DNA of 64,000 nucleotides. Source: a virus. The position numbers and the translations under genes were made by a program. The notes under the pieces were generated by a model, which did not search any database, had not been told where the DNA came from, and saw only the letters and a list, made by a program, of their open reading frames with translations. The DNA is taken from positions 36,410 to 100,409 of IMG/VR virus record IMGVR_UViG_3300019487_000024. One strand, written 5' to 3'. Positions 5,643 to 61,934 of the stretch are shown piece after piece. Every line of letters starts with the position of its first letter. The first letter of the stretch is position 1.

Positions 5643-5678
5643 GAGTGAACTTTTTTTAAGTTTACTTATCTCATTTTA

Positions 5679-27793: not shown

Positions 27794-28554
27794 GCTAATT
27801 CTTCCTTTCCAGTCTTGATAAGGTCTGCCGTTTTTGGAATGATGGTGTGGTACTGCCACTTTCCTTCCATATAGCTTACGCCCTTGCCCTTAACGGTATT
27901 GGCAATCACAACTTCCGGTTGGTCGTCCATCGTAGAGAACGCTGCCCGAAGTTGATCAAAGTCATGTCCATCCACTTCGGTTACTTTGAACCCGAAGCTT
28001 TCAAACTTGGCACGCAATGGTTCTAAGCGAAGCAATTCTTCCGTTCCTCCAAGGATGCACAGTTGGTTTCTGTCCACAATCAACTTCATGTTGTTGAGCT
28101 TGTGGTGAGCGATGAATGTGAGGGTTTCCCACACAGAGCCTTCATACAGTTCTCCGTCTCCGAGGATGACGAAAACCTTCTTGTCATTATCATATGCGAG
28201 TCCAGCGGCATAACCAATACCATTGCCGAGAGAACCACCTACGAAATGACATCCGGGGATGCTTGCGTCAGAGTGAAGACGAAGGATTCCACCCTTGCGG
28301 CAATACTTGTCCAGTTCTTCCGCAGGCACCAAGCCACGGTCCACCAAGATAGGATAAATGGCGGGCGACCCATGTGCTTTGCTGAAGATTAGGATGTCAC
28401 TGTCGGGGTTGAAGACAGTCTTGTCATAATGCAAGGACACCAATACATCCACAGTGGACAACGAACTTGCTAAGTGACCGACTCCCGATGATGTTTTGAA
28501 ATCAAAGATTCGGCGTCTGACAGACTTTGCTATTTCTTTCAATTTTTCGTTCAT
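27790..28554 (-). CDS. Transketolase N-half (second pair)
   Basis: 254 aa. GVGHLASSLSTVDVL, SKAHGSPAIYPIL, GGSLGNGIGYAAGLAYD and the ThDP motif LGDGELYEGSVWE ... VDRNQL are clear transketolase N-terminal motifs (GDG ... N). It overlaps the C-half gene by 4 nt, so the two subunits are made in a coupled way. A second diverged pair lies 9 kb away (16438/17703). Confidence 0.9.
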   Translation of the reverse strand: MNEKLKEIAKSVRRRIFDFKTSSGVGHLASSLSTVDVLVSLHYDKTVFNPDSDILIFSKAHGSPAIYPILVDRGLVPAEELDKYCRKGGILRLHSDASIPGCHFVGGSLGNGIGYAAGLAYDNDKKVFVILGDGELYEGSVWETLTFIAHHKLNNMKLIVDRNQLCILGGTEELLRLEPLRAKFESFGFKVTEVDGHDFDQLRAAFSTMDDQPEVVIANTVKGKGVSYMEGKWQYHTIIPKTADLIKTGKEELA

Positions 28555-29507
28555 ACGATTTTCTCTCTGTAGTGTTGCAACAAAAATTCAATGCTCTCGT
28601 CCAATGTTCGAGTAGCTTTCCATCCTGTTTGGTTCTTGAACTTGGATACGTCAGGAATTTGCATAGTTACGTCCACGGGACGCAGTAAGGACTTGTCCAA
28701 TTCAGTTGGAACAGGAACCTTAGCGTGGTCAACGAGCTTCTGCAAAAATTGTCCAACGGTAAGATACTCCGTTCCACCGATGTTGTACTCTTCTCCATGC
28801 ACGCAATTGATTGCGGCTTGCCAATAGGCTTCCATAATGTCTCTGACATCAATGATGGTTCTTGTGGAGTCCAAGTTGCCATGTGTAATGACTTTCCTCT
28901 TACTTTTTTCAATCTCAACGACTTGACGAGCAAAGGCACTTGAGAAAATATCAGGTCGGCGAGGATTGATGTAAGTGAACGCCCTCGTCAGGACCACGGG
29001 AATACCATATGAAAGCCAATAGGACTTGCATAGCTTCTCTTGAGCCAGCTTGCTAATCGCATAGACATTCACGGGGTCAATCTTCTGGCTCTCCTTGATG
29101 GGAGTATCCTCTACTCGCACTTGTCCATAGACTTCGGATGTGCCACAAAATTGAATCACTGGCTTCATCTTCAGAATACGAACTGCTTCAAGCAAGTTAA
29201 GTGTTCCATTGACATTGTTATTGAAAATGGAACTAGGATTTACAAAGCAAAGCCTCACGTTGGCATGTGATGCCATGTGGAAGATGTAATCTGGCTGTGC
29301 TTCTTCCAGTGCCCGAATTACCGCACCCATATCGGTCAAATCACACTCAAATAGCTTTACCTTATCTTGGACTTTCTCAAGATTGGATGAACGGTCGGTG
29401 TGCCATCGAGTAATACCTTGAACTTCAAGGTTTTCTTTCGTAACCAAGTGCTCGGCAAGATAACTTGCCCCGCTACCATTGATTCCTGTAATCAGTGCTT
29501 TCTTCAT
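28551..29507 (-). CDS. GDP-mannose 4,6-dehydratase-family SDR
   Basis: 318 aa. GINGSGASYLAE (Rossmann), HMASHANVRLCFVNP, CGTSEVYGQV (catalytic T-x-E pattern), YAISKLAQE (YxxxK) and NPRRPDIFSSAFARQ match the GMD family. Products are 4-keto-6-deoxy sugar nucleotides. In Campylobacter and Yersinia, relatives act on GDP-heptose, which fits the HddA-like kinase here. ATGA overlap with the fucosyltransferase-like gene upstream. Confidence 0.85.
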   Translation of the reverse strand: MKKALITGINGSGASYLAEHLVTKENLEVQGITRWHTDRSSNLEKVQDKVKLFECDLTDMGAVIRALEEAQPDYIFHMASHANVRLCFVNPSSIFNNNVNGTLNLLEAVRILKMKPVIQFCGTSEVYGQVRVEDTPIKESQKIDPVNVYAISKLAQEKLCKSYWLSYGIPVVLTRAFTYINPRRPDIFSSAFARQVVEIEKSKRKVITHGNLDSTRTIIDVRDIMEAYWQAAINCVHGEEYNIGGTEYLTVGQFLQKLVDHAKVPVPTELDKSLLRPVDVTMQIPDVSKFKNQTGWKATRTLDESIEFLLQHYREKIV

Positions 29508-36255: not shown

Positions 36256-36971
36256 TTGAAATGGTCTTGAAAATACGTCAAGTCTTCAGGAGTGCCAAGA
36301 CCCCACATTTTATTGATGTGGAATATCTTCACTTTCTTTCCATCGCCGATTGCTTCATTATACACCGGAGCCACATAGAACTCGTTGTTAACTCGCACGT
36401 TCTTGGCAATCATTTGTTCGGCATACTTGACATAATCCGAACCTTTGCTCCAATAATAAATTCCAACTGTGGCTTCGTTACTAATGACTTCCTTTTCCTT
36501 CACTTCTGTCACGAATCCATTGTCATCCAATCTCACATAGCTCCACTTAGGATGGCTGTTGTTGAAGGTAAGAATACCACCATCAATCTTGTCTCCTTGC
36601 ATGGAATACATGAACTTATTCCAATCGAAATTTTCAATATATTGGTCTGAATTTGCAATTAACAATGGTTCATCATTATTGATGAATTTCTTGGCGAGTA
36701 GGGTTGTGCAAGCAGCACCCTCAGTTAAATGGTCAACCTCAACGATATTACATTTAGCGATTCTGTTTAGCAATTGTTTGAAATGATATTGCTGAGTATG
36801 TTCTTTTCTGACTATAAATGTATGAATGGCGGGAATACCAAGGTTTTCAACAACAACTTGTATCATTGGTTTATCATTAAAATTCTTAACAGCAATCAAA
36901 GGTTTTGGAAAAGAATAACCTGCCTTTTCAAACCTACTGCCTGCTCCTGCACATGGTATTAAGACTTGCAT
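36252..36971 (-). CDS. Sugar-1-phosphate nucleotidyltransferase
   Basis: 239 aa. The LIPCAGAGSRF signature (G-x-G-x-R), FPKPLIAV (catalytic Lys region), ANSDQYIENF (in the place of the usual D-G-D) and a C-terminal GLGTPEDL define a short NTP_transferase of the RmlA/HddC type. It would activate a sugar-1-phosphate, for example the product of the GHMP kinase at 22686. It overlaps the HAD-HNH gene by 13 nt. Confidence 0.82.
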   Translation of the reverse strand: MQVLIPCAGAGSRFEKAGYSFPKPLIAVKNFNDKPMIQVVVENLGIPAIHTFIVRKEHTQQYHFKQLLNRIAKCNIVEVDHLTEGAACTTLLAKKFINNDEPLLIANSDQYIENFDWNKFMYSMQGDKIDGGILTFNNSHPKWSYVRLDDNGFVTEVKEKEVISNEATVGIYYWSKGSDYVKYAEQMIAKNVRVNNEFYVAPVYNEAIGDGKKVKIFHINKMWGLGTPEDLTYFQDHFK

Positions 36972-38155
36972 ATTTGTTTCTTTAGTCGTTCAAGTTCAGT
37001 TTTTGTTTCTTGCCACAATTGATAAAAGTCGTCACCATGTCCGGGATGATGTTGTTTTGTGGTCAACAGTTTTAGATTTTCTAGGCGATTGTCATCTTTT
37101 TTTCCATTCTTATGGTGGACAATCTCATGTTTTTCGAGTGCTCGGCGTAGATGAAGCGACATAACTAATCTATGTTCAAAAACATATTCGGGTTTTCCTT
37201 CACTTTTCCACGAAATCTTGTGGGCTATTTCTTTTTGTTCGTATGGTAATTCGGAAACATTTAATACAACGTATCCATGTGTGGAACGTTTATTTGGGTT
37301 GTATAAAATGTGTTTTTTTCCATGTTGGAATGCAGACGGACAACAAGATTGACATTTTCCCGTGAATACTCCTTTTTGAATTTGAGTTATAATGTTGTGA
37401 TTATTGACGAATCTTGATGTATTGCAGGATGGACATAAAACTGTTGATTGGTAATGTCCTTTGGCTTGATTGGAATTTTTTTGAAGAAGCAATTCTGAAA
37501 ATTGAGAATACTTCTGCATACATTCATAAAGTTTATTGATAGCCTCAATAAACCGCCCCACTCTTGTCAAATTGACATCGGAGGGAGACTGTATAATCAT
37601 TACTTCCGCTCCACTATTCGTGGCTGCGGCGATACCGTTAGGAGAGTCTTCCAAAATCAAAACTTCAGATGGTTGAAGGTTCAAAGTCCGAATAGCCGAA
37701 ATATAAATCTCTGGATTTGGTTTTGGTTGTTGGACTTGTTCGTTTGTTAAAACAATGTCAAATATATTTGCACAGTGTAATTTTTCAAGAAGAATGTTCG
37801 TTGTTTTTTGAATACTATTTGTGCAAAGTCCAACTTTCAATCCTCGATCACGCAAATTACAAATAACCTTTTTTATTCGGCTGTCACATTTGATATTTGC
37901 AAGTAATTTTTCAGTTAGTTCTTGTTTTCTATGTTCTATTTGAGAATTCCATTCTGATGGAAGTCCTTTGTATAAGTTTAGAAATTCGAGTTTTTTCTTC
38001 GTGGATAATCCTTCGTAGGTTTTCGTTTGTTCTGAGGGAGTGATGACATATGACGAGGAATACTCTGATAGTGCATAATTCAATGCTGTAAAGTGGAGTT
38101 CTTTTGTTGAAGAAATCAATACTCCATCAAGGTCGAATAAAATGGCTTTAATCAT
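36959..38155 (-). CDS. HAD phosphatase fused to an HNH endonuclease
   Basis: 398 aa. Residues 1-215 form a complete HAD-superfamily phosphatase: FDLDGVL (D8, D10), LCTNS (about 110-114), KPNPEIY with the Lys, and EDSPNGIAAA (169-178). It resembles beta-phosphoglucomutase/phosphoglycolate phosphatase. Residues 238-398 carry zinc pairs (C241/C244, C268/C271), then an HNH nuclease-like end with EHRL (H328), HHKNGKKDDNRLENLKLL (H347/H348, N360). The nuclease part looks like a homing enzyme attached in frame to the 3' end of the HAD gene. The phosphatase could serve the heptose pathway (GmhB-like role). Confidence 0.85.
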   Translation of the reverse strand: MIKAILFDLDGVLISSTKELHFTALNYALSEYSSSYVITPSEQTKTYEGLSTKKKLEFLNLYKGLPSEWNSQIEHRKQELTEKLLANIKCDSRIKKVICNLRDRGLKVGLCTNSIQKTTNILLEKLHCANIFDIVLTNEQVQQPKPNPEIYISAIRTLNLQPSEVLILEDSPNGIAAATNSGAEVMIIQSPSDVNLTRVGRFIEAINKLYECMQKYSQFSELLLQKNSNQAKGHYQSTVLCPSCNTSRFVNNHNIITQIQKGVFTGKCQSCCPSAFQHGKKHILYNPNKRSTHGYVVLNVSELPYEQKEIAHKISWKSEGKPEYVFEHRLVMSLHLRRALEKHEIVHHKNGKKDDNRLENLKLLTTKQHHPGHGDDFYQLWQETKTELERLKKQICKS

Positions 38156-52878: not shown

Positions 52879-52900
52879 AAACCTCCATTCGGAGGTTTTT
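52879..52900 (+). terminator. Intrinsic terminator
   Basis: AACCTCC (52880-52886), loop ATTC, GGAGGTT (52891-52897), followed by TTT. A 7-bp perfect stem with A-run before and T-run after, closing the polymerase-to-DUF1937 operon. Confidence 0.9.
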
Positions 52901-52925
52901 GTGTTTTCATAGATATGTATTTCAC

Positions 52926-53358
52926 ATGAAATTGTGGAAATTTATCATTGGAAATGAAAAATATGAAGTATCTTCGGATGGAGAAGTTAAAAATAGTTGC
53001 ACCGGAAGAATTCTTCGTCAATTTTTAAGACGGGACTATCCATCCGTCGAATTGTACAAGGAAGGAGATGGAGTCATATATTATGTTCATCGTCTAGTTG
53101 CCGCAGCTTTTATTGATAATCCAACAGGAAAGCCGTGTATAAATCAATGGAATAAAAACCGATAATAATATTGAAAATTTAGAATGGTGTTCATCAGAAG
53201 AAAACATTGAACATTTTTATATTCAATTAGCAAAAAAACATCTTTGTGATACTGCGTTTAAGTTTTTAACCGAAAATTTCAATCAAGATAAATTAACTTC
53301 AAGCGAATGGGTAAATAAATTTGGGGAGTTCATAAAAACCAAGGATAGTAATAGATAA
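52926..53358 (+). pseudogene. Frameshifted HNH homing endonuclease remnant
   Basis: From the ATG at 52926 the frame gives a NUMOD4-like start (FIIGNEKYEVSSDGEVKNS), then VHRLVAAAFIDNPTGKPCIN. It ends at 53165, just where the HNH motif should follow. The other frame continues from ~53162 with DNNIENLEWCSSEENIEHF, the normal HNH continuation, to a stop at 53358. A single indel near 53155-53162 therefore splits the gene. The first HNH His also reads Gln (INQW). It is decaying but recognisable. Confidence 0.82.
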
Positions 53359-53382
53359 TTGTTTTTAAGGCGGCTATTTTAC

Positions 53383-54042: not shown

Positions 54043-54696
54043 TTAGAGTTTGCTTCTTCGTAGTTTTCGTGCTGTCTTATATTTTGGAATGTCTTTCGAT
54101 GGAACTTTCGATGTGAGTGTTATCTCCAATCCAAGGTTGTCAATAATGTTGAAAACGGTCGAAAGACTAATGTTTGGATTTCCTTTGAAAAGTCTCCATA
54201 CAGTATCTCTGCTTGTGTTTACGTCTTTACAAAGCCGTTCTTCTTTTAGATTTATCTTTTGACGGTGTAAATTTAATACCGTCCCAATATCTTTTAAGGT
54301 TTTAATAGGATATTCGCAATAAGTTTGGCGTTCTTTTTCAGAAGGGAAAACATTGTTTATTATTATGTCTTCAACTTCTTGTGGTGTTGTTAGAAACCAT
54401 TCATCACCAACAACATTGGTTGTTCGTGGAAGTTTGAACCGATACAATGCTTTGTGGAGTTGGGATTCAACATAATATCCACATGGAGTTTTAATCAAAA
54501 GTCCTATGATTGGTTCTTTGGCCATTGAAGTCTGAACTCCTTGGGATATTATACGTTGAATTGGCTCGGTAGATGAGAATCCTATTTTACATTCCCATCT
54601 TTTTTTGTTTTCCAACTCTGCAAGACGCTTGTCATTTTCATTGTAATAAACATACACATATTCATTACCAATCCCTATTTCTTTTTCGATCTTCAT
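54043..54696 (-). CDS. T5orf172 (GIY-YIG-type) nuclease domain fused to an HTH
   Basis: 217 aa from the ATG at 54696. Residues ~12-110 have the T5orf172/Mug113 pattern, a GIY-YIG relative: YVYVYYNEND, WECKIGFSS (the K-x-G equivalent), RIISQGVQTSM, VESQLHKALYRF (Glu-x-x-x-H) and GDEWFLTT. Residues ~125-205 form an XRE-like HTH (DIGTVLNLHRQKI ... DVNTSRDTVWRLFKGN). It is the only minus-strand gene in this stretch, with its own upstream repeats (54706-54783). A homing-type enzyme that represses its own gene is the most likely reading. Confidence 0.78.
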   Translation of the reverse strand: MKIEKEIGIGNEYVYVYYNENDKRLAELENKKRWECKIGFSSTEPIQRIISQGVQTSMAKEPIIGLLIKTPCGYYVESQLHKALYRFKLPRTTNVVGDEWFLTTPQEVEDIIINNVFPSEKERQTYCEYPIKTLKDIGTVLNLHRQKINLKEERLCKDVNTSRDTVWRLFKGNPNISLSTVFNIIDNLGLEITLTSKVPSKDIPKYKTARKLRRSKL

Positions 54697-54705
54697 ATGC
54701 AATAC

Positions 54706-54783
54706 ATATCTGACATTAACCTAAAATCACAGATTTATTTTTTGATATATCAGACATTTTCATTGTCTTCAATATCGGACATT
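54706..54783. promoter_or_regulatory. Three operator-like direct repeats upstream of the HTH nuclease gene
   Basis: ATATC-N-GACATT occurs at 54706-54717 (N=T), 54747-54758 (N=A) and 54772-54783 (N=G), identical except for the middle base, with spacing 41 and 25 bp. They fill the region directly upstream of the minus-strand XRE-type gene. A weaker inverted relative lies at 54884-54895 (ATTGTCGGTTAT). They probably are binding sites for that gene's own HTH. Confidence 0.7.
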
Positions 54784-54890
54784 ATTTTGAATGGAAGTAT
54801 TGATTTTCAAGAAAACTGTAAAGGATAATGGTATTATTGTCTTCTATATCAATCACAAAAGTAAGTTGTCTTCTTCCACATTGTCGGTTA

Positions 54891-54898
54891 TATTTATA
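54891..54898 (+). promoter_or_regulatory. TATTTAT-type late-promoter-like element
   Basis: TATTTATA, 9 nt before the ATG at 54908. Confidence 0.42.
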
Positions 54899-54907
54899 AT
54901 CAAACCT

Positions 54908-55885
54908 ATGAGTGACTACAAAAACCATATCGCCCGTGAACTCGGAGTGAAGATTAAAGTCAAAATCTCCGAAGACGTTGACCCCGACGAATTGGGGCGG
55001 GGAATTGAAGATGAACGTTCACAAACGGGCGACGACGATGAACTTGCCAAGAAGATTGCACAGAGCCATCTGAAAGATGATGATAAGTTCTACAGCCGTC
55101 TTAGTAGCCAGTCAGTCTCGCCAAGTCCTCGTGATCGTGTCCTTTCACCAACCGCAGTTATGCCACAAGTATTGGCTGTCGCAGTTCGTGGAAGTAATAC
55201 TGGTGGTCTTCCATCTGGAAATAACATGAGCCGAGGCAAGCTTGGCGGCTATGAACCAATTCCAACAGCAAAACAGAATTCGTTGGTGGTTGACAAGACT
55301 CCTGAAAGTAATGTGATTGAAAATCCGGCACCTATTGCCACTGATGGAGGGGTTGAAACTACTCCGGGTGAGGAACATCCTCATCAAACCCAAAACGATG
55401 CCGACCAACCTCCACAAGCCGTTACTGGTGCATCAACAGATGACACTGACAGTTCTATGTTAAAGGCAGCATTGCCTCAAGGAATTGATGTTGATGTTGC
55501 GGAAGATTGTAGTTGTGAACATGAAGAGGAACCGAAAGAAGATCACGCTGCCGCCATGAATGAAATTAAGGGTATTCCGACTAATCGCCTCTATGCTGTG
55601 CGTAAGTCTCTCCAAGAGAAGGCACAAAAGGGCACCATGACCAAAAAGGAAAGTGAAGTTTTCAGTTGCATTACTGAAGTTCTTCAGAAACGTGGTCTTG
55701 GTCTTGAACAAAAGATGTTCGGAAAAAAGACGATGTTGGAAACTGCCGGTGTTTCTTCAAAAGAAAAAATGGATGACAAATTGGCTAAGTTGAAGGATAA
55801 AAAGGACGACGAAAAAGCAAGGCGAGATCATAAGTCAGTTATGAAGAAGCTTGAGGCTGACGTTCGCCGTGATGATTTAGCATAA
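54908..55885 (+). CDS. Putative late/virion protein with disordered middle
   Basis: 325 aa from the ATG at 54908; an upstream in-frame ATG lies in the promoter region. The N-terminal ~70 residues end LKDDDKFYSRL, similar to the gene at 53394. The middle (80-210) is Pro/Ser/Thr/Gly-rich. Residues ~215-325 are charged and helical with an N-terminal ECSCEHE-like acidic stretch and a Lys-rich end. No enzymatic motif. Probably structural or scaffold. Confidence 0.62.
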   Translation: MSDYKNHIARELGVKIKVKISEDVDPDELGRGIEDERSQTGDDDELAKKIAQSHLKDDDKFYSRLSSQSVSPSPRDRVLSPTAVMPQVLAVAVRGSNTGGLPSGNNMSRGKLGGYEPIPTAKQNSLVVDKTPESNVIENPAPIATDGGVETTPGEEHPHQTQNDADQPPQAVTGASTDDTDSSMLKAALPQGIDVDVAEDCSCEHEEEPKEDHAAAMNEIKGIPTNRLYAVRKSLQEKAQKGTMTKKESEVFSCITEVLQKRGLGLEQKMFGKKTMLETAGVSSKEKMDDKLAKLKDKKDDEKARRDHKSVMKKLEADVRRDDLA

Positions 55886-58945: not shown

Positions 58946-59254
58946 ATGCAATACTACGTTGTAGATACAACCCTGAATCCGCCACAAGAAAAGCGATTCA
59001 CTGAATATGGACATGTTGTTCAATACCTTGAACAAATGTCTGTCAGAGCATTTGGTCAATCTCGTAAACAGAGAATGATCATGCTTGAAGAGATTGGTCA
59101 CGGACACGATGACTCAAGCTCTGTTAATTTCGTTCGTTCAATGGCTGAAAAATTCAATATGGGAGTTCTCCGTGATGGAGTATTCCGTAATGAAAGGATG
59201 CGATGTGACATTACGTCTGTCGCCCTCTTCCAACGGGAAGAATTCGGTAGTTGA
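58946..59254 (+). CDS. Small hypothetical protein
   Basis: 102 aa from the ATG at 58946, with AGAAGGAAAC just upstream. The sequence has a helical middle (RKQRMIMLEEIGHGHDD). No recognised family. It is transcribed with the SF2 helicase gene that follows after 16 nt. Confidence 0.62.
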   Translation: MQYYVVDTTLNPPQEKRFTEYGHVVQYLEQMSVRAFGQSRKQRMIMLEEIGHGHDDSSSVNFVRSMAEKFNMGVLRDGVFRNERMRCDITSVALFQREEFGS

Positions 59255-59270
59255 AAAGACGAAAAGAGTT

Positions 59271-61934
59271 ATGTTGAATATCCGGTGGAGTTCACCCTAT
59301 GTCGTAAAAGACGGTGCCAAATCTAAATGGCGTCGGGAGTGGTCCATTCCCCCGGAAATGGCTAATGGCTTCTTTGTCTTCTGGAAAAAGAACCGATTCA
59401 AACTTCTAGCCGATGGCTTCTCCGTAAGTAAGAGTGAACGCACGGGTAAATGGTATCTATTTGAAACCAAAGACCACGCTGCTTTATTCAAGAATTTCTC
59501 CGACGCTCCCCCGGCGAATGCACCCGAAGACAACTTCGTTCTTCCCGAATACACCATCCAAGACTCAAGTGGTCTGCGTCTGTGGCAAGTTGATGCGGCG
59601 GGCAAGTTGGTTTCTGCTATCCGCTCATGGAACGCTGCTATTGATGGCTCTGACACGGGCACTGGAAAATGTCTAATTGCGGGAACACCTGTTAAACTGT
59701 ATGATGGTCGGACAAAAAATGTAGAGGATATTGTAGTTGGCGATTGTTTGATGGGAGATGATTCAACTCATAGAGAAGTCTTATCCTTAGCAAGAGGACA
59801 AGATATATTGTATAAAATTAAACCAACACAATATGGTGAAGAATGGGGATGTAATTCCGAGCATATTTTGGTATTGTACAACACTCGAATAAAAGAACTT
59901 GGAGAATTTACAGTAAAAGAATATCTCAAAAAAGCAGAAAAATCAACTCGTTTCAAAAATGAATGGAAATTGATCCGTACTGCGGTCGAATATCCATCTT
60001 ATCATGTAAACGTGTCTCCATATTTAATGGGATTGTGGATTGGTGATGGAACTTGGAATTCATTGTCAATTACTGCGTCTCGATATGAAAAGGAGATTAT
60101 TGATTTTCTATACTCATATGCTAAAGAACATAACGCCCGAATTGCCGAGAGTAAACTGCGGGATGGTTCCAATTCGATTACATTTTATATTCGTGGGTTA
60201 ACTCATGGAAAAAATGAACAATGGGATTTTTTCAAACATTATCAACTTGGTAATTCAAGAGAAAAGTTTATTCCAAAAGCATATTTACTTAATGACCGTT
60301 CTACTCGACTTTTATTATTGGCTGGTATCATAGATTCTGATGGATCATGGGGTAGTAATGGTTGTTATGAAGTAACAACCAAATGGAACAGGTTGAAAAC
60401 AGATATTGTTGAATTATGTCGCTCTTTAGGATATGGTGTTTCTTATGTTCAACGAGAAATTTTGAAAGAAGATAATAATTTTGGGTTTGAAGGAAAATAC
60501 TGGAGAATTTATATTTCTGGTGCTCATGATATTCCATGTAAACTTGAACGTAAGAAATCAACCCCACGCAAACAACCTAAATCGGTGTTAGTTTCGTCAT
60601 TCTCCGTCGAACGAATTGGGTACGGAAATTATTATGGATTTGAAATTTCGGGAAATCGCCGGTTTTTGTTGGGAGATTTCACAATCACGCATAATACTTA
60701 TACCGCATGTGCAGTAGCAAGGGATTTGGGATACAACATTGTGGTCGTATGTCCAAAAGCAGTCATAAAGTCATGGAATAAAGTCATTCGCAAGCATTTC
60801 AAGATGGGTGACAAATGCTTGGGCATCATTAACTATGAAAAGCTCAAGACAGGTAAGAAGGATAATGCTATTGCATCTTATGTCCTAAGCCGATCCTCCA
60901 AACGAAACGTATTTACGTGGAAACTTCCCAAGAAGACATTGATTGTTTGGGATGAATCTCAAAAACTCAAGAACTACAAGACAAAGAATGCCAAGATGTG
61001 CGTCCAAGCCATCAAAGAAGGCTATCCAATGCTGTTCTGCTCGGCAACCAATGCAACCAATCCGCTTGAAATGCGTGCAGTTGGTCAAGCATTGAAGATG
61101 TTCAAGGGGAGTGCCAAGTCCTACTACGATTGGGCAAGAGCACATGGAGCATATGATGGAACGTGGGGATTGGAGTTTAACAATGATCCCGCCGTTCTCA
61201 AAAAGCTTCACAAAGACATCTTTGAAAAGCGTGGCATTCGTCTTCGCCGTGATACTATTCCAAACTTTCCCGCCAGTGAAATCATCTCTGAAGTGTACAA
61301 CATGGATGAAGAGGATGCAAAACGCATCAATGAAATCCATGAAGAGATGGAAGCCGAGTTGAAGCGTCTTGAGAAAATCAAGAAAGGCGACGGGCAGAGT
61401 GAATTGGTCATTCAACTGCGTGCTAGACAGCAAATTGAGCTTATCAAGGTTCCATTGTTTGTAGAAATGGTGGAAGACGCTCTTGAGCAAGGATTTTCAA
61501 TTGCGGTATTCATCAATTTCACAGATACTCTTATTGCTTTGGCTACCCGCCTCGGCACAAAATGCATTTTTGATGGTAAAACTCCCGACAAAGTTCGAGA
61601 CCAAAATGTAGAAGATTTTCAAGATGATAAGGAGAGGGTTATCCTTGTCAACGTTCAATCCGGGGGTGCCGGATTGAATTTACATGACCTAACCGGCAAA
61701 TTTCCTCGCATGTCTTTGATTTCTCCGACCTACTCACCAGTATTTATGAGACAGGCATTAGGAAGGATATGGAGGGATGACGCCAAAACCAAGAGCATTC
61801 AGAAAATTGTCTGTGTTGCCAACACAGTAGAAGAGAACGTATGTAGAAACGTACAATTGAAACTAGACAATCTTGATATGCTTAATGACGGAGACCTCAC
61901 CTATGCGAAAAACTATGAAATCATCAGCGATTAA
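59271..61934 (+). CDS. SF2 (SNF2-like) helicase interrupted by an intein
   Basis: 887 aa from the ATG at 59271; 545 aa after removal of the 342-aa intein. Helicase motifs: Walker A GSDTGTGK (split from its Thr by the intein at codon 134), motif II VWDESQ, motif III CSATN, motif VI QALGRIWRDD, and LVNVQSGGAGLNLHDL, all in SNF2/UvsW-like order. The likely role is remodelling of replication or recombination intermediates, as for UvsW in T4. The intein sits exactly between the Walker A Lys and the Thr. Confidence 0.88.
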   Translation: MLNIRWSSPYVVKDGAKSKWRREWSIPPEMANGFFVFWKKNRFKLLADGFSVSKSERTGKWYLFETKDHAALFKNFSDAPPANAPEDNFVLPEYTIQDSSGLRLWQVDAAGKLVSAIRSWNAAIDGSDTGTGKCLIAGTPVKLYDGRTKNVEDIVVGDCLMGDDSTHREVLSLARGQDILYKIKPTQYGEEWGCNSEHILVLYNTRIKELGEFTVKEYLKKAEKSTRFKNEWKLIRTAVEYPSYHVNVSPYLMGLWIGDGTWNSLSITASRYEKEIIDFLYSYAKEHNARIAESKLRDGSNSITFYIRGLTHGKNEQWDFFKHYQLGNSREKFIPKAYLLNDRSTRLLLLAGIIDSDGSWGSNGCYEVTTKWNRLKTDIVELCRSLGYGVSYVQREILKEDNNFGFEGKYWRIYISGAHDIPCKLERKKSTPRKQPKSVLVSSFSVERIGYGNYYGFEISGNRRFLLGDFTITHNTYTACAVARDLGYNIVVVCPKAVIKSWNKVIRKHFKMGDKCLGIINYEKLKTGKKDNAIASYVLSRSSKRNVFTWKLPKKTLIVWDESQKLKNYKTKNAKMCVQAIKEGYPMLFCSATNATNPLEMRAVGQALKMFKGSAKSYYDWARAHGAYDGTWGLEFNNDPAVLKKLHKDIFEKRGIRLRRDTIPNFPASEIISEVYNMDEEDAKRINEIHEEMEAELKRLEKIKKGDGQSELVIQLRARQQIELIKVPLFVEMVEDALEQGFSIAVFINFTDTLIALATRLGTKCIFDGKTPDKVRDQNVEDFQDDKERVILVNVQSGGAGLNLHDLTGKFPRMSLISPTYSPVFMRQALGRIWRDDAKTKSIQKIVCVANTVEENVCRNVQLKLDNLDMLNDGDLTYAKNYEIISD
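59670..60695 (+). mobile_element. Intein with LAGLIDADG homing endonuclease
   Basis: 342 aa inserted after GSDTGTGK. The first residue is Cys (CLIAGTPVKLYDG); the end is FLLGDFTITHN followed by Thr as the +1 residue. Block B is seen as NSEHILVL. Two dodecapeptides of the LAGLIDADG type are present (LMGLWIGDGTW and LLAGIIDSDGSW). Insertion in the P-loop of an ATPase is a common intein site. It seems complete and active by motif. Confidence 0.93.

Follow-up and report, generated by a model that had tools for sequence, protein, structure and literature searches.

The window analyzed here is a 64,000-nucleotide stretch (bases 36410-100409) of the 100,409-base virus record IMGVR_UViG_3300019487_000024, which comes from an uncultured phage. 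Among its genes is a minus-strand gene that combines an N-terminal GIY-YIG nuclease domain with a C-terminal region resembling helix-turn-helix (HTH) domains of the XRE/HipB type, preceded by a leader with three operator-like repeats (Table 1). The 908-bp gap between the flanking genes contains solely this gene and its leader. A possible earlier TTG start lies at 54702. The gene limits given by a first-pass annotation, made from the DNA letters alone, fit this TTG start, and the open frame from the ATG runs from 54696 to 54043. The same annotation correctly described the gene as the only one on its strand locally: of the substantial open frames between about 44.9 kb and the end of the window, no other makes a convincing minus-strand gene, and the rest lie on the plus strand.

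Table 1. Features of the insert and its surroundings (window coordinates)
Feature	Position	Strand	Remarks
Gene, 217 aa: GIY-YIG (T5orf172/MUG113) nuclease with C-terminal XRE/HipB-like HTH	54043..54696	-	open frame, ATG at 54696
GIY-YIG nuclease domain, residues 12-112	54361..54663	-	Pfam T5orf172 and MUG113, above cut-off
HipB/Y4mF-like XRE HTH, residues about 135-196	54109..54294	-	sub-threshold profile matches
Putative operator copy 1, ATATCTGACATT	54706..54717	+	10-21 bp upstream of ATG
Putative operator copy 2, ATATCAGACATT	54747..54758	+	
Putative operator copy 3, ATATCGGACATT	54772..54783	+	overlaps end of promoter-like -10
Sigma-70-like promoter candidate, TTGAAA-18-AATAAT	54781..54810	-	10 of 12; weak
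Inserted segment, flanked by conserved plus-strand phage genes	54000..54907		flanking homologues adjoin in five relatives; 33% G+C; ends approximate
Left flanking phage gene	53394..53999	+	35-36% identical in L015/L016
Right flanking phage gene	54908..55885	+	homologue directly after left one in relatives

An inserted nuclease gene

Comparison with related phages establishes that the gene lies on an insert. A polymerase search yielded eleven related contigs, two of which (L015 and L016) reach the region in synteny, and using the left flanking gene as query added three more (L025, L026 and L027). In all five, homologues of the flanking genes are neighbours in the same orientation and no gene separates them; the gaps are 3, -4, 198, 213 and 73 bp, compared with 908 bp in the window. 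The insert occupies an intergenic site that is empty in these five relatives, as expected of a free-standing homing gene. Microcystis phage Mel-JY01, the nearest phage by polymerase, was set aside, as the flanking genes are not near its polymerase and it gave no T5orf172 match. The insert is also A+T-rich, at 33% G+C versus 44-45% in the flanking genes. The G+C content at third codon positions is 0.28 in the gene, close to the 0.29-0.34 of three further nuclease-like genes in the window, which are likewise A+T-rich, and unlike the 0.37-0.53 of eight phage genes.

The N-terminal part of the protein is established as a nuclease domain, with Pfam matches to MUG113 (2e-6, 28.6 bits; cut-off 22.3) and T5orf172 (5e-6, 27.3 bits; cut-off 20). 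In an alignment of six sequences, comprising the window protein and five single-domain relatives from kindred phages, Y13, Y15, K37, G39, E77, E99 and W100 are invariant, and the KIG motif at residues 37-39 and the EW motif at 99-100 are kept. R48 occupies the expected position of the catalytic arginine, as judged by eye, although it falls one column away from the arginine of the other sequences in the alignment. The GIY-YIG catalytic residues, including the arginine and the glutamate, are retained, and together with the Pfam scores these positions bear out the initial classification of the protein as a GIY-YIG-type nuclease.

The assignment of the C-terminal region to the XRE-type HTH domains is supported but weaker. 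TIGR03070 matches at 5.6e-5 over the full model, but with 23 bits against a cut-off of 71.65, and the Pfam family HTH_3 reaches 15.7 bits against a cut-off of 23. Further matches come from phrog_1373 (1.7e-5), phrog_8522 (4.8e-5) and the HipB(Lp) entry in the PDB (E 0.01). The XRE HTH proposed earlier is therefore recovered by several libraries, but as a resemblance only, with no match above a curated cut-off.

Operator-like repeats and a candidate promoter in the leader

The leader contains three copies of ATATC-N-GACATT, 12-mers that are identical apart from their central base, with start-to-start distances of 41 and 25 bp. The whole record contains no further exact copy. In 2000 dinucleotide shuffles of the 211-bp leader, a set of three 12-mers varying at a single fixed position never appeared, nor does any other 211-bp stretch of the window contain one. 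The repeats were already reported in the first-pass annotation, which overlooked the near-dyad symmetry of every copy (ATATC-N-GACAT), centred on the variable base. Even the relaxed dyad ATRTC-N-GAYAT occurs in the window at these three places only. The relatives' empty junctions lack such operator-like sites, so the sites arrived with the insert.

The sigma-70-like promoter candidate, read from 54810 to 54781, terminates on operator 3. From sequence, this arrangement of operators and promoter is what repression by the protein's own HTH would require. The leader is common to the nuclease gene and to the divergent plus-strand gene at 54908. A second promoter candidate, TATAAATA at 54891 on the minus strand, was considered as a T4-like late promoter of the gene and not used; in the plus-strand reading it is part of a ATATTTAT(A) motif. 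TATAAATA is enriched in the window (8 occurrences, 1.3 expected) but not above the reversed control in the whole record. The ATATTTAT(A) motif precedes the start codon of several plus-strand genes by about 10-35 bp (positions 5678, 6450, 54890, 57082, 58065, 62995 and 63539) and is a candidate phage promoter motif.

Related systems and other nuclease-like genes

Phage T4 carries homing endonucleases of which 12 are free-standing and intergenic. The demonstrated autorepression in this phage is that of the intron-encoded I-TevI, a GIY-YIG nuclease with a C-terminal HTH that binds an operator over its own late promoter and represses it (PMC2988022). The window protein shares this general architecture. 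However, its gene is free-standing, it belongs to another GIY-YIG subfamily, and it carries a predicted XRE/HipB-like HTH instead of the I-TevI domain. Its leader has three short near-palindromes, whereas I-TevI uses one operator that resembles its homing site, and autorepression of the window gene is putative.

The T5orf172 genes of ICP1, T5-like and other phages, described as an abundant homing family, encode the same type of nuclease, lie between phage genes and possess a separate DNA-binding domain (PMC10448857). Of 229 published T5orf172 genes, 200 have CapR, DUF723 or DUF4397 zinc fingers and a few have RepA_N, while neither an XRE-type HTH nor an operator array is described for them in the part of that source available. 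Because zinc fingers predominate among the genes covered there, the combination of an XRE-type domain with an operator array represents a variant. Odn (Gp88) of ICP1 consists of a T5orf172 nuclease and a satellite RepA_N domain, and its cutting needs three semi-palindromic iterons (PMC8263062). It resembles the window protein in fusing this nuclease to a DNA-binding domain from another replicon and in the importance of three semi-palindromic repeats, but its repeats lie in an enemy origin rather than in its own leader, and the type and order of the domains differ.

HipB and the Y4mF-family antitoxins have the HTH type nearest to that of the window protein. HipB represses its own operon via four operators of the form TATCC-N8-GGATA, with half-sites 13 bp apart (PMC3376134). 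In contrast, the window HTH is fused to a nuclease, no toxin partner is seen, and both the sequence and the spacing of the operators are different.

An alignment-based scan for homologues found none. In 380 genomes from the phylum of a Parcubacteria metagenome-assembled genome (MAG), nine of ten protein matches cover the HTH only; the tenth, which matches weakly and only in part (37-161) within a longer frame, was rejected. Reading by eye the 13 T5orf172 proteins found in 399 genomes from the phylum of bacterium 1XD42-1 revealed none with a HipB-like C-terminus. Neither the literature searched nor the databases scanned, which comprised mostly close relatives and sampled genomes, yielded a T5orf172 gene that combines a HipB-like domain with a three-site array of its own. 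The T5orf172 proteins of related phages are small, single-domain and encoded at another locus, and were not counted as the T5orf172-HTH fusion. In five of these phages (L021, L022, L032, L033 and L034) the small protein directly precedes an HNH protein, and in four of the five loci (L022 and L032-L034) a ClpP-like protease precedes the pair. These loci form a conserved cluster and are not homing-like.

Three further elements of the window speak for a homing-type reading of the gene: an HNH_3 domain, a NUMOD4 fragment and an intein that carries a homing endonuclease domain. The NUMOD4 open frame at 52899-53165 is interrupted, and an HNH-like continuation (...NNIENLEWCSSEENIEHF...) lies in another frame; this remnant (region 52929-53360) is probably a decayed homing endonuclease beside the insert, or an assembly error. 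The intein, with Hint and homing endonuclease domains, lies in an SNF2-type helicase (59085-61934) whose L015 homologue lacks it, and a HAD hydrolase is joined to the HNH_3 endonuclease domain in one open frame at 36962-38155. In a sugar gene cluster, an epimerase/dehydratase-like protein (28554-29507) is 70% identical to a Candidatus Parcubacteria MAG protein, which may possibly be a hint to the host or reflect transfer.

Proposed homing and self-repression, and alternative readings

With about even confidence, we favor the reading that a free-standing endonuclease gene of the homing type has inserted between two phage genes that run in the same direction, and that it is probably self-repressed via its own HTH. 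The N-terminal GIY-YIG domain would cut the cognate locus in a co-infecting phage without the gene, and recombination would then copy the gene into that phage. The HipB-like HTH would contact DNA, probably in dimeric form, and would also bind the three near-palindromic leader sites, blocking a promoter there. As a result, a brief burst of nuclease synthesis would be followed by shut-off. Of these activities of the 217-residue protein, cutting and homing are what we infer alongside binding and repression, and autorepression is plausible but unproven. A more specific proposal, which we consider less likely than not, is that a free-standing homing nuclease gained an antitoxin-type (HipB-like) XRE domain and a three-operator array, so that a single small protein acts as a gene drive and represses itself, or that the nuclease was re-aimed at the operators of another element.

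Several points weigh against the favored reading. The relatives are distant, with 24-36% identity over the flanking proteins, so the insert could be old, and its ends are approximate. All HTH scores lie under the curated cut-offs where such cut-offs exist, and AlphaFold, run without an alignment, failed to produce a usable model of the whole protein or of the HTH alone (predicted local distance difference test scores of 38 and 45); a Foldseek result on the whole-protein model was discarded as meaningless, the model having failed. The promoter call is weak, with 7 sites compared with 4.0 +/- 1.8 in shuffles. Protein scans of viral contigs, phages, plasmids and genomes returned no two-domain homologue, giving nothing or the HTH only. 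Finally, only 6 bp separate the centres of the visible half-sites, versus 13 bp for HipB, which makes a classical dimer on each 12-mer uncertain.

The last two points also bear on an unlikely but not negligible alternative, in which the repeats are promoter elements or insertion remnants and the gene encodes a plain homing endonuclease without autorepression. The half-site spacing is unlike that of HipB, and the scans gave no homologue of the fusion that would show the repeats to be conserved upstream. Such a view accounts poorly for repeats that are unique to this leader, are missing from the relatives' empty sites, vary at the dyad centre only and abut the promoter-like site. The protein could instead regulate the transcription of phage genes, its nuclease domain being vestigial or merely structural, with the three sites controlling the gene and perhaps also its neighbour at 54908. 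The XRE-type HTH, the operator array and the divergently shared leader are consistent with this role, but the kept GIY-YIG catalytic positions, the confinement of the sites to one place in 100 kb, which leaves no wider regulon visible, and the ability of relatives to manage without the gene make it rather improbable.

Equally improbable is a domesticated nuclease resembling Odn, with an HTH taken from the repressor or antitoxin of another element, whose operators or origin it would cut during infection, and with the leader repeats as an autoregulatory copy. The three iterons needed by Odn (PMC8263062), the existence of further T5orf172-RepA_N proteins (PMC10448857), and the HipB antitoxin type of the window HTH speak for it. 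However, no element with paired sites of this sequence was found: a paired-operator scan of viral contigs gave five loci, all in repetitive or unrelated sequence and without a T5orf172-HTH gene, and only one single operator-like site occurs among 15 related records.

For the homing-type reading, the earlier description of an "autonomous, self-repressed selfish gene" is supported by its behaviour as one insert, its foreign composition and operators that abut a promoter-like site; self-repression is inferred, as the scans gave no homologue in which to compare the repeats. The companion suggestion of a phage-phage interference module finds no specific evidence.

How free-standing homing endonucleases control their toxicity is a largely unanswered question. 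If the favored reading is true, a compact 0.9-kb unit of gene, HTH and operator array would allow autorepression of a free-standing homing gene to be tested directly with one protein and one short DNA. It would also add a repressor-type domain to the DNA-binding modules acquired by T5orf172 nucleases.
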